Shown in pieces: positions 58,177 to 62,634 of a DNA stretch of 62,972 nucleotides. The stretch lies in contig JAHISP010000004.1 in the NCBI GenBank assembly GCA_018818165.1, forward strand, positions 1 to 62,972. The letters run 5' to 3'. The translations under genes and the position numbers were made by a program. The notes under the pieces were generated by a model that ran no database searches, was not told the origin of the DNA, and saw only the letters and a list, made by a program, of their open reading frames with translations. The first letter of the stretch is position 1; each line of letters begins with the position of its first letter. Source of the DNA: Bacteroidota bacterium (GTDB lineage Bacteria > Bacteroidota > Ignavibacteria > Ignavibacteriales > Melioribacteraceae).

Positions 58177-58938
58177 ATGTTCAAAAATGCGATAGTAAGA
58201 ACACCAGGTAAGAGTATGATTAGTGGATTAACCACATCTAATTTAGGACTTCCAGATTATGAAAAGGCACTTTTACAGCACTCAATTTATATATAAGTAT
58301 TAAAAGAATGTGGTTTGGAAGTTACAGTATTAGAGCCTGATGAAAATTTTCCAGATTCTACTTTTGTTGAGGATGTTGCATTACTTACAAAAGAGTGTGC
58401 AATTATTACTAATCCAGGTGCACCTTCCAGAAAAGGCGAAATTGTTGAAATGAAAAATGTTCTGCAAAATTTTTACACAAATATTGAAGAAGTAAAATCT
58501 CCCGGAACTTTAGAAGCTGGCGATGTAATGATGGTTGGCTCTCATTTTTATATTGGATTATCCAAAAGGACAAATTCCAATGGTGCCAAGCAAGTAATTC
58601 AATTTTTAGAAAAATATGAAATGAGTGGTTCTGTTGTGGAATTAGAAAAAGTGCTTCACTTAAAAACTGGAGTGGCATATTTAGAAAATAATAATTTAGT
58701 AGCATGTGGCGAATTTGTATCAAAAAGAGAATTTCAAAAATTCAATATTATAGAAATTGACGAAAGTGAAAGTTATGCTGCTAATTGTATATGGGTAAAT
58801 GACAACGTATTAATTCCAAAAGGCTTTCCACTAACATCCAGAATAATTAAAAAAGCTGGATACATTGTTAAGGAACTTGATGTTTCAGAATTTCAAAAAT
58901 TAGATGGAGGGCTTAGTTGTCTTTCTTTACGATTTTAA
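58177..58938 (+). pseudogene. Dimethylargininase-family hydrolase with stop at codon 40
   Basis: From ATG 58177 the frame encodes MFKNAIVRTPGKSMISGLTT and LGLPDYEKALLQHSIYI, then TAA at 58294-58296, and continues without shift to VLKECGLEVTVLEPDENFPDS, FVEDVALLT and the C-terminal LDGGLSCLSLRF with the catalytic Cys; the catalytic His region LHLKTG is also kept. One nonsense change is the only visible defect, so decay is recent or the sequence has an error. DDAH enzymes convert methylated arginine to citrulline. Restart downstream at 58315 would lack the N-terminal substrate loop. Confidence 0.85.
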
Positions 58939-59119: not shown

Positions 59120-60751
59120 TTAAAGATTTATTGAAGTCCGATGATAAACATCCATGTGAATTTTTTTTATTTTTTCATCAGCAATATATTCATCAAATGT
59201 CATTTTTTTATCAATAATTCCAGTTGGAATAATTTCGATAATTCGATTTGCAATTGTTTGAATAAACTGATGATCATGCGAACTAAATATTATTGTTCCC
59301 GGAAAATCAATTAGACTATTATTAAGCGCCGAAATAGCTTCCATGTCAAGATGATATGTTGGTCCATCTAAAAGAAGAACATTTGGATTTGCTAACATCA
59401 TTTTTGCAAGCAAACAGCGAACACGCTCACCACCGGAAAGCACGCTTGCTTTCTTTAATGATTCTGGACCACTAAAAAGCATTCTTCCAAGAAATCCTCT
59501 TATATATGCCTCTTCTTTTTCAACAGAATACTGACGAAGCCAATCAATTAGATTCAAATCAACATCAAAAAATTCAGCATTGTCCTTTGGGAAGTACGCA
59601 TACTTAATTGTAGCGCCCCATGTAAAACTTCCTTTATCGGCTTTTTCATTATGCGTAATAATATCAAATAATGTAGTTTTTACTAAATCATTTGGTCCAA
59701 CTAAAGCAATCTTATCACCCTTTTCTACTTTAAATGATACATTATTTAGAAGAATTTCACCTTCTTTATATTTTGTAATATTATTTATATCAATAAGATT
59801 GTTGCCAGCTTCACGCTCAGATTTGAATGCAATATAAGGCATTTTACGCGATGATGGTTTAATATCCTCAAGAGTTAAATTTTCAAGTTGCTTTTTTCTT
59901 GAAGTTGCTTGTTTGGATTTAGAAGCATTAGCACTAAATCTAGCAATAAACTCTTGTAATTCCGCACGTTTTGATTCTATTTTTTTATTGGAGTCTTTCG
60001 CTTGTTTTGAAGCCAATTGACTGCTTTCTAACCAAAAATCGTAATTGCCAGTGTACATTTGAACATGTCCATAATCAATATCAGCAATATGAGTACAAAC
60101 TTGATTAAGAAAATGTCTATCATGTGAAATAACAATCACAGTATTTTTAAACTTTTCCAGAAAATCTTCCAACCACCCTATTGAAATTATATCAAGATGG
60201 TTTGTAGGTTCATCCAAAAGTAAAATATCTGGATTTCCGAACAATGCTTGGGCCAAAAGCACTTTTACTTTATCATTACCCGACATATCTTTCATCAATT
60301 TTGAGTGATGTTCATCGTCAATCCCCAATCCACTTAAAAGTTCAGCTGCTTCAGATTCTGCTTCCCAACCATATAGCTCAGCAAATTCACCTTCTAATTC
60401 GGCAGTTCTCATGCCATCTTCGTCTGTAAATTCTGGTTTTGCATATAATGCATCACGTTCTTCCATTATTGCATATAGTTTCTCATGACCCATAATTACT
60501 GTTTTCAGAACTTCAAACTCATCATATTCAAATTGATTTTGTTGCAAAGTTGCAAGTCTTTCGCCTGGAGTTATTATAATATTTCCAGAAGTTGGCTCAA
60601 TTTCTCCAGAAAGAATTTTAATAAAAGTTGATTTACCAGAACCATTTGCACCAATAATGCCATAACAGTTACCTGGAGCAAATTTAAGATTAACATCTTC
60701 AAATAAAGTTCGTTTTCCGTATCTTAGTGATATGTTGCTTGTACTAATCAT
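59120..60751 (-). CDS. ABC-F family ATPase with one degenerate ATP site
   Basis: 543 aa with two ABC domains, no transmembrane segment, and a linker about 240-300; arrangement and length match the YbiT-like ABC-F group that acts on ribosomes. NBD1 has Walker A GANGSGKST (34-42) and Walker B LLLDEPTNHLD. NBD2 keeps signature LSGGERVR (438-445). But the other composite site is altered: signature 1 is MSGNDK (156-161), Walker A2 is GPNDLVKTT (352-360), the Q-loop reads FPKDN, and Walker B2 is LLLDGPTYHLD with Gly463 for the catalytic Glu. All changes affect the same site, so this looks like functional asymmetry or early decay. Confidence 0.92.
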   Translation of the reverse strand: MISTSNISLRYGKRTLFEDVNLKFAPGNCYGIIGANGSGKSTFIKILSGEIEPTSGNIIITPGERLATLQQNQFEYDEFEVLKTVIMGHEKLYAIMEERDALYAKPEFTDEDGMRTAELEGEFAELYGWEAESEAAELLSGLGIDDEHHSKLMKDMSGNDKVKVLLAQALFGNPDILLLDEPTNHLDIISIGWLEDFLEKFKNTVIVISHDRHFLNQVCTHIADIDYGHVQMYTGNYDFWLESSQLASKQAKDSNKKIESKRAELQEFIARFSANASKSKQATSRKKQLENLTLEDIKPSSRKMPYIAFKSEREAGNNLIDINNITKYKEGEILLNNVSFKVEKGDKIALVGPNDLVKTTLFDIITHNEKADKGSFTWGATIKYAYFPKDNAEFFDVDLNLIDWLRQYSVEKEEAYIRGFLGRMLFSGPESLKKASVLSGGERVRCLLAKMMLANPNVLLLDGPTYHLDMEAISALNNSLIDFPGTIIFSSHDHQFIQTIANRIIEIIPTGIIDKKMTFDEYIADEKIKKIHMDVYHRTSINL

Positions 60752-61066
60752 TTATTCCATTATATTTTTTATTATTAAATAGTGAGGTTCTTATTAAATA
60801 TTTGCAACGTTTAATATCCATTCTAACAAGACATAACTTAATCCACAAAAATATTACAAAGAATATTTTGTGCAACTAATAAGTCTAACTGTGAAAAATA
60901 TGGAGGGAAAACAAGATTATTTATGCAAATTTGTATTTATTCAAAAACTCCAATGCAAAAATACTAAATAATTTGATTGGTACCAATTTAGTTGATTGAG
61001 TTTTATTAATTTCAGTTCAATAATCAGTAATTTCTATACCAAAATTTTTATTGCTTGAGTATTATA

Positions 61067-61099
61067 AAACCACCTATATTTTTAAAATATAGGTGGTTT
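61067..61099. terminator. Perfect 33-nt palindrome, tandem terminator
   Basis: A 16-bp perfect stem built on AAACCACCTATA/TATAGGTGGTTT with a 1-nt centre, followed on the minus strand by TTTATAA. It lies 54 bp beyond the radical SAM stop. With the second palindrome at 61123 it forms a double barrier ahead of the ABC-F gene. The rest of the 401-bp gap 60752-61152 shows no gene. Confidence 0.7.
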
Positions 61100-61122
61100 A
61101 CTGTTATATGATAACTCTATTA

Positions 61123-61152: not shown

Positions 61153-62634
61153 TTAACAATAATTATTTGATATTTTCCTAAAGTGGAAGCCATAAATTGC
61201 AAATAAAATTGCAAGTGAAAACAACTTTGGTTTGCGAAATAATGTCCAGAAAAAGAGTTTCCAATAGTAAACTCTTTCCTTTCCTATTATTCCTAATTTT
61301 AATATGGATTTGAACAATGCAGCTATGTAATTAGGATTAAGATGAAATACTTTCTTTTGTGTAGGTTCAAATTCTTTTAAAAATTGCATTACTCGTTCAT
61401 AAAAGTATTTTGGGTCATAAATAGTAATTAAAACTTTTTTATATCCATCAATAAGGGTTTCCAATTTCATTTGTGGAATAAAGTTAATTGAAAAATCAGT
61501 ATTATTACCCGTAAAATCTTTTAATAATCTACCTTCATTTTGTAACCTTTTATATAATTTTGTTTCCTTTGGTGCATTTAGTAACCCGACCATTGCAGTT
61601 ATAATTCCGCTTTCCTGAATGAAGTTTGAAAGCATTTCAAATATTGCTGGAGTATCGTTATCAAAACCAACTATAAATCCGCCTTGAACTTCTAAACCAA
61701 AGCTTTGAATTTTTTTAATGCTGGAAATTAGATTGCGTTTAATATTCTGAGTTTTGTTGCATTCTGATAAACTCGCCTCATTTGGAGATTCTATTCCAAT
61801 AAAAACTGTTTCAAATCCAGCTTCAACCATTTGGTTCATTAATTCTTCATCATCAGCAAGATTTATTGATGCTTCTGTATTATAGTAAAATGGATTTTTC
61901 TTCAACGCATTCCATTCAATAATTGCGGGAAGAATTTCCTTTTTTAGCTTTCCCCTATTCCCAATAAAATTGTCATCAACAAAAAACACTGGTCCTCGCC
62001 AACCAATTGAATATAAAACTTCTAATTCTGCAATTATATTTTCTGTTGTTTTAGTTCTCGGATATCTTCCGTAAAGGACAGTAATATCGCAGAAATCGCA
62101 ATCGTAAGGACAACCACGTGAATACTGAATATTCATGGAAGCATAATCTTTTAAATTCACTAATTCCCAAAGTGGTAATGGAGTGGTGGTAATATCTGCC
62201 CATTCTTTAGATGTATATTTATGAACAGCTTTTCCTTCTTGCAAATCTTCTAAAAAGCGCGGAAGTGTAACTTCTGCTTCATTTAAAACTAAATAATCAA
62301 CTATATCATAATATTCCGAACTACTTGTAAATAGCGGTCCTCCTGCTACAATTTTAGCATTTAACTTTTTACATTTTTGGATTACAAGATTTGCTGATTC
62401 ACTTTGAATTGACATAGCACTTATAAAAACATAATCTGCCCAAATAATGTCTTTCTCCTTAATATCAGTAGTATTCATATCAATTAGCTTTTTTTCCCAA
62501 CTATTAGGTAGCATGGAAGCTACTGTTAAAAGTCCAAGTGGAGGAAAACTTGCTTTTTTTGATATAAATTTTAAAGCATGTCTAAAACTCCAAAATGTAT
62601 CCGGGTAACTAGGATAAACCAATAATATATTCAA
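61153..62634 (-). CDS. B12-binding radical SAM protein (DUF4070-type)
   Basis: 493 aa from a TTG at 62634 with GGAGG 5 nt upstream; no ATG is closer to the conserved MNILLVYP opening. Residues about 1-135 form a cobalamin-binding Rossmann domain without a strict DxHxxG. The radical SAM domain has CPYDCDFC (about 177-184) for the 4Fe-4S cluster, plus FVDDNFIGN and TVFIGIESPNEASL. The C-terminal part (GFIVGFDNDTPAIFEMLSNF, then VGLLNAPKETKLYKRL) fits DUF4070. Such proteins include the hopanoid C-3 methylase HpnR and uncharacterised relatives. It probably methylates or alkylates an unactivated carbon; the substrate is unknown. Confidence 0.88.
   Translation of the reverse strand: MNILLVYPSYPDTFWSFRHALKFISKKASFPPLGLLTVASMLPNSWEKKLIDMNTTDIKEKDIIWADYVFISAMSIQSESANLVIQKCKKLNAKIVAGGPLFTSSSEYYDIVDYLVLNEAEVTLPRFLEDLQEGKAVHKYTSKEWADITTTPLPLWELVNLKDYASMNIQYSRGCPYDCDFCDITVLYGRYPRTKTTENIIAELEVLYSIGWRGPVFFVDDNFIGNRGKLKKEILPAIIEWNALKKNPFYYNTEASINLADDEELMNQMVEAGFETVFIGIESPNEASLSECNKTQNIKRNLISSIKKIQSFGLEVQGGFIVGFDNDTPAIFEMLSNFIQESGIITAMVGLLNAPKETKLYKRLQNEGRLLKDFTGNNTDFSINFIPQMKLETLIDGYKKVLITIYDPKYFYERVMQFLKEFEPTQKKVFHLNPNYIAALFKSILKLGIIGKERVYYWKLFFWTLFRKPKLFSLAILFAIYGFHFRKISNNYC

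Follow-up and report, generated by a model that had tools for sequence, protein, structure and literature searches.

The window, the whole stretch of DNA analysed here (62,972 nucleotides of contig JAHISP010000004.1, from an Ignavibacteriales genome of the Bacteroidota), carries towards its end a gene that forms a single open frame of 543 amino acids (Table 1). Its product matches Pfam ABC_tran in two stretches and ABC_tran_Xtn in the linker, indicating tandem ABC domains and an ABC-F linker. The best-scoring profile is the YbiT-type NCBIfam model NF011646 (PRK15064.1), whose curated cut-off of 762 bits is not reached by the window protein (682.6 bits) or by the Bacillus velezensis YkpA protein (676.2 bits), while E. 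coli YbiT passes it (1067 bits). Both the protein and its AlphaFold2 model, which is fairly confident with a mean pLDDT of 86, have E. coli YbiT on the ribosome (9njf) as their closest PDB match. On a tree rooted on three paralogues from the same genome, the protein and E. coli YbiT fall together in a clade of 195 tips (support 99) that leaves out the other ABC-F proteins of the host. Within it, a single clade combines a degenerate Walker A2 with an intact first ATP site; the window protein belongs to this clade, which we call the YkpA-type branch, a name coined in this analysis. The protein is a YkpA-type member of the YbiT/YkpA group of ABC-F proteins, and it falls outside a definition of ABC-F proteins by two canonical ATP sites (both catalytic glutamates, Walker A motifs and signatures). 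From YbiT structures and YkpA genetics, it would be expected to bind and act at the ribosomal E site. Among the best 25 of 188 profile matches, no antibiotic-resistance ABC-F model was matched at its cut-off, and a resistance reading of the gene is weak; in S. aureus, deletion of YbiT had no effect on susceptibility to the drugs tested (PMC10810581).

The same genome encodes three additional ABC-F proteins: EttA and an NF000355-type protein, both above cut-off, and a third that falls between EttA and Uup and whose Walker and catalytic residues are canonical in the two sites. The gene is patchy among relatives, being found, with its own genome counted, in 9 of 39 related genomes at E<=1e-120 and in two of the five genomes of the genus, and a 98% identical orthologue sits in an Ignavibacteriales metagenome-assembled genome. 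On one side of the gene lies a dimethylargininase-like sequence whose frame, from a start at 58177, is broken by an in-frame TAA (58294-58296) and is open only from model position 48 on (58315-58938); it is either a broken gene or an assembly error. On the other side, an inverted repeat that is probably a terminator separates the ABC-F gene from a radical SAM gene. The sole Rfam match upstream of the ABC-F gene, mir-299, falls far below threshold on both strands of this hairpin. Matches of the radical SAM protein to named families are weak; the best, to a PhpK-type P-methyltransferase, scores 82.5 bits where the cut-off is 600.

Table 1. Features of the YkpA-type gene and its surroundings, in window coordinates; counts refer to the family sample described in the text.
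Feature	Position	Strand	Basis or count
YkpA-type ABC-F CDS (543 aa)	59120..60751	-	ORF reading + profile + structure matches
A-loop aromatic of NBD1, Y11, site I	60719..60721	-	F in 122/171 of YkpA-type set
Walker A1 GANGSGKST (34-42), site I, intact	60626..60652	-	K40 194/194
Q-loop 1 Gln71, site I, intact	60539..60541	-	195/195
Signature 1 MSGNDK (156-161), site II, degenerate	60269..60286	-	alignment
Walker B1 ILLLDEPTNHLD (176-187), site I, intact	60191..60226	-	D180 + E181 195/195
H-switch 1 His210, site I, intact	60122..60124	-	195/195
Inter-domain linker region, residues 224-309	59825..60082	-	Pfam ABC_tran_Xtn
NBD2 A-loop position K329, non-aromatic, site II	59765..59767	-	alignment
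Walker A2 GPNDLVKTT (352-360), site II; glycines 355 and 357 lost, Lys358 kept	59672..59698	-	alignment
Q-loop 2 position K389, Gln lost (FPKDN), site II	59585..59587	-	Gln in 27/195
Signature 2 LSGGERVR (438-445), site I, intact	59417..59440	-	G440, G441, E442 194/194; S439 195/195
Walker B2 VLLLDGPTYHLD (458-469), LLLDGPTYHLD, site II; catalytic Glu463 to Gly, N466 to Tyr	59345..59380	-	alignment
H-switch 2 His492, site II, kept here; non-His in 54/194	59276..59278	-	alignment
Dimethylargininase-like sequence	58177..58938	+
Inverted repeat (hairpin)	61063..61102
Radical SAM protein	61153..62634	-

In head-to-tail ABC dimers, the Walker motifs of NBD1 and the signature of NBD2 build site I, and the reverse combination builds site II. 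The same composite pairing is described for ABCE1 (PMC6124641). Here, site I was taken as the NBD1 Walker A, Q-loop, Walker B and H-switch together with the NBD2 signature, and site II as the NBD1 signature together with the NBD2 A-loop, Walker A, Q-loop and catalytic glutamate. A sequence-only reading of this stretch had listed Walker A2, Q-loop 2, Walker B2 and signature 1 as non-consensus and Walker A1, Walker B1 and signature 2 as intact, and every quoted motif is present as it stated; Q-loop 1 and H-switch 1 are consensus as well. None of 13 site I positions is changed, and six of 13 site II positions clearly are (K329, D355, V357, K389, G463 and N159), with D160 a conservative seventh; the non-aromatic K329 at the NBD2 A-loop extends the earlier list. 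The site II residues still present are K358, T360, D462, H492, S157 and G158, and N466Y, which falls at the D-loop near the changed glutamate, was counted in neither site. By simple counting, the chance that four altered motifs of eight all fall in one named site is 1 in 70, and that six altered residues among 26 paired ones all fall in site II is 0.0075. Judged by its sequence, site II of the window protein has lost residues that serve phosphate binding, adenine stacking and hydrolysis. The structural model also offered a replacement of the P-loop by a helical turn, an NBD2 helix running from residue 355, and this was set aside: the control model of a canonical protein, L193, has the same helix, and that control is itself confounded because its alignment consists mostly of degenerate rows.

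Conservation was read from a family sample seeded by the window protein. A scan of named genomes gave 27 loci. Phylum-wide searches (E<=1e-100 or 1e-110) matched 70 of 247 genomes (the window's own counted), 59 of 249, 31 of 146 and 11 of 149. Each searched set was the phylum around one central genome, namely that of the window or one from Peribacillus, Melainabacteria or Scalindua, and phylum names were inferred from these centres. Of 40 further phylum-sample matches, 33 were taken, the remaining seven all belonging to one family code (f25). With E. coli YbiT and the relatives' loci included, the sample held 208 proteins, of which 195 were distinct; ten loci scoring under 330 bits against the query were left out before counting, as were 13 identical copies (208 to 195), and two rows (L056, L188) are partial. 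The tree is a quick LG+G4 inference with weak deep nodes. On it the Pseudomonadota are E. coli alone; four other gammaproteobacterial proteins, read for their motifs, all have a canonical Walker A2.

Walker A2 splits the 195 proteins into 172 in which it is degenerate and 23 in which it is canonical. The 172 YkpA-type proteins form one clade (support 100) and come from Bacteroidota, Ignavibacteria, Bacillota, Melainabacteria and Scalindua genomes. The site I residues tallied over the whole class in Table 1 are present without exception, one row being partial at the GGE of signature 2. In site II, by comparison, the class retains K358 in 92/195, E463 in 152/194 and H492 in 140/194, and in signature 1 the serine (Ser157) in 56/195 and the second glycine in 23/195. 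Within the YkpA-type branch the erosion goes further: Gln389 is kept in 4 of 172, Gly355 in 13 and Gly357 in 3, signature 1 lacks SGG in 171 and has it in 1, and 111 have Ile or Val at the A-loop position of NBD2. Mean entropy among the 172 is 0.07 bits in site I and 2.01 in site II. Two control families, drawn from relatives of the window's genome and less broadly sampled than the 172, behave otherwise: entropies for sites I and II are 0.09 and 0.07 in EttA (n=22, from 22 of 33 genomes) and 0.11 and 0.06 in the NF000355-type paralogue (n=30, of 33 matches). Judged by whole-domain entropies (1.24 and 1.02 bits against 1.06 and 1.28), that paralogue matches the 172 roughly in diversity, the EttA set being less diverse. 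Both catalytic glutamates, both Walker A lysines and both signatures are kept in all 22 EttA relatives.

Evolutionary rates give the same division. Among YkpA-type proteins the mean rate is 0.090 for site I, 1.024 for site II and 0.70 over all residues, and the site II member evolves faster than its site I partner in 14 of 14 pairs (Wilcoxon p = 6e-5), the fourteenth pair being what we take to be the D-loop histidine. The earlier claim that the changes sort by composite ATP site is thus borne out well beyond the window protein. General decay of NBD2 does not explain the sorting, because signature 2, which lies in NBD2, is invariant while signature 1, in NBD1, drifts. Given an invariant site I, a site II that on average keeps pace with ordinary residues and canonical paralogues in related genomes that keep both, the degeneration of one site is a branch-wide trait under purifying selection rather than private decay. 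All 36 orthologue rows examined for the pattern (copies included) have a degenerate Walker A2, Q-loop 2 and signature 1, and orthologues with a normal NBD2 are absent among near relatives, the 23 proteins with a canonical Walker A2, E. coli YbiT among them, being more distant. The sequence-only reading had described the pattern in this one protein; the asymmetry itself belongs to the whole branch, and only the Glu-to-Gly and Asn-to-Tyr changes are lineage-specific.

The losses within site II are uneven. Its slowest residues are D462 (0.09), the D-loop His (0.35), E463 (0.37) and H492 (0.38), the rest ranging from 0.71 to 1.81, with K358 at 1.08. Since their rates are about half the mean, Glu463 and His492 are loosened but not free. 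The fewest changes required on the tree, with loss and gain not told apart, are 11 at E463, 12 at H492, 10 at K358 and 4 at Q389, and 0 at each of eight site I counterparts. Among 171 proteins with a degenerate Walker A2, 42 lack Glu463; none of the 23 with a canonical one does. Of the 18 rows of the Ignavibacteria clade, 13 have Gly and 5 have Glu at position 463, and elsewhere the replacement is Gln, His, Asp, Thr or Gly; Tyr466 occurs in three distinct rows. The Walker B2 change is thus the young part of the pattern, those in Walker A2, Q-loop 2 and signature 1 extending over the whole branch. In another clade, two proteins of the Melainabacteria set (L064 and L228) have a Walker B2 that reads DGPTDHLD, close to the DGPTYHLD of the window protein. 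As to the order of the older losses, 12 proteins combine a canonical Walker A2 with a signature 1 without SGG versus one with the reverse (L104), so that signature 1 was likely lost first and Walker A2 later, on a tree whose deep nodes are weak (support 5 and 21). The breadth of the trait is the sole basis for its age.

Members of this group have been studied in several species. In Bacillus subtilis, knock-out reporters indicate that YkpA (YbiT) is functional, and its knock-out is reported to stall on charged motifs (PMC11381351). B. subtilis YkpA and its Bacilli orthologues belong to the same subfamily as the window protein and were compared here through the B. velezensis protein, which is 63% identical and has a degenerate Walker A2 without its lysine (TGRNELAVTT) and a degenerate signature 1 (LGGSEKVKV). 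The B. velezensis protein keeps Glu463 and has lost the Walker A2 lysine; the window protein is the reverse. Its gene lies near those of the signal peptidase SipT, a ketopantoate reductase and an aminopeptidase, which is presumably the gene order of B. subtilis ykpA. E. coli YbiT is similar to the window protein over its full length (45% identity) but differs in having a canonical Walker A2, Q-loop 2 and Walker B2, signature 1 alone being degenerate (VAPGWK).

Asymmetry between the two sites is not new to ABC-F proteins. Functional asymmetry is reported for MsrD and, as cited there, Vga(A) (PMC10314930), and for M. tuberculosis EttA (PMC8782954). In MsrD, E125Q keeps some resistance while E434Q is more toxic (PMC10314930); from its position, we take E125 to belong to NBD1 and site I. 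EttA and MsrD share with YkpA-type proteins the ABC-F fold and an asymmetry of the two sites, but the EttA relatives keep both sites in sequence. Many ABC proteins with one degenerate site are known, and in ABCE1 occlusion of site II is required before hydrolysis at site I (PMC6124641). The two sites of ABCE1 differ in role, as those of YkpA-type proteins probably do, but ABCE1 needs closure of the very site that has degenerated in the YkpA-type branch. The sequence-only reading had held asymmetric sites to be uncommon among ABC-F factors; this stands for the loss of one site in sequence, which is what is unusual here, and does not stand for functional asymmetry, which was already known. No earlier description of a degenerate site in YbiT or YkpA was found among the matches listed in an open-access library.

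Taken together, a YkpA-type protein is probably a ribosome E-site factor with a single catalytic ATP site, site I, and a site II that is at most a non-hydrolytic contact. By analogy with relatives, its linker would reach the peptidyl transferase centre. ATP at site I alone would bring about the domain closure that lets the factor fit into the E site, and hydrolysis at site I alone would open and release it. Site II would then act as a contact or hinge at most. In proteins that have lost the Walker A lysine as well, it is probably empty; where that lysine is kept, as in the window protein, it may still have a nucleotide bound. Loss of signature 1 and Walker A2 may have left Glu463 and His492 less tightly held, with repeated losses following. 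More tentatively, and with less than even confidence, we propose that this widespread branch of housekeeping translation factors needs a single ATP, in a single site, to complete its cycle on the ribosome, that site II has turned into a nucleotide-free hinge, and that the retained site is opposite to that on which MsrD and ABCE1 appear to rely most. As that reliance falls on the site lost in YkpA-type proteins, their cycle should not follow the ABCE1 scheme.

Such a family bears on a wider problem. What each of the two ABC-F ATP sites does on its own is a question for which double Glu-to-Gln (EQ2) mutants are often used. A family that has naturally dispensed with one site provides part of the answer and points to the half to test, suggesting that a ribosome helper of the ABC-F kind can run on a single ATP site. 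An EQ2 version of a YkpA-type protein may in effect be a site I mutant, because its second glutamate lies in the degenerate site and is already Gln in 16 of 171 members.

Against a single working site stands the constraint that remains on D462, E463 and H492, together with the presence of K358, T360, D462 and H492 in the window protein. Degenerate sites of other ABC proteins can bind ATP. Site II might accordingly bind ATP without hydrolysing it and serve as an obligatory allosteric or glue site, two ATP being bound and one turned over, an arrangement that we consider unlikely. It would suit the K358, T360 and D462 of the window protein and the retention in YkpA-type proteins of K358 (69/172) and D462 (168/171), as well as the control of site I by site II occlusion in ABCE1; that need for occlusion also argues against a factor of such build working on site I alone (PMC6124641). 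A selected binding site should, however, retain its glycines and A-loop aromatic, which the counts given above for positions 355 and 357 (13/172 and 3/172) and for Ile or Val at the A-loop (111/172) do not bear out, and K358 itself is lost in 103/172 and evolves faster than the mean.

That site II has instead been rebuilt for another ligand or contact, such as another nucleotide, rRNA or a ribosomal protein, is quite improbable. Part of the site is still conserved around Q-loop 2, with P388 in 191/195 and an acidic residue (Asp or Glu) at 390 in 192/195, but this pair is already present in most basal two-site proteins, and the rates of most site II positions are near or above the mean, which is unexpected for a new ligand site. 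There is even less reason to suppose slow hydrolysis at site II, with substitute residues, in the members that keep Glu463, which would make the family asymmetric and not single-site: the glutamate persists in 129/171 at about half the mean rate, but hardly any of the 172 retains signature 1, the Walker A glycines or Gln389, and the window protein is without Glu463 too.

The substitution pattern bears on whether the gene is in use. Against the nearest, 98% identical orthologue, dN is 0.010 and dS 0.188 (dN/dS ~0.05); against 15 other orthologues, dN is 0.09-0.14 and dS is either saturated or at least 1.6. Between the domains, dN is somewhat higher in NBD2 than in NBD1 (0.107 vs 0.072 against L033, for example) and equal in the nearest pair. 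By these values the window gene is a working gene under purifying selection, in line with the earlier view that random decay would not sort the changes in this way, and a pseudogene reading is weak. Private or recent decay of a gene losing function is scarcely credible, for although E463G and N466Y are lineage-specific, the gene is patchy and dN is somewhat raised in NBD2, the frame is open, dN/dS to the nearest orthologue is low, site I is untouched and the pattern is common to several phyla.

The matches in plasmid and phage records are not taken as a sign of mobility. Among 40 of 51 plasmid records with matches that were listed, most are very large replicons, and among 10 of 37 phage records listed, nine are without annotation under the match. 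In the phylum of the Melainabacteria centre, three genomes carry two or three basal two-site YbiT paralogues each (L191-L197, L234, L235), and two of these, L191 and L235, adjoin in one genome.
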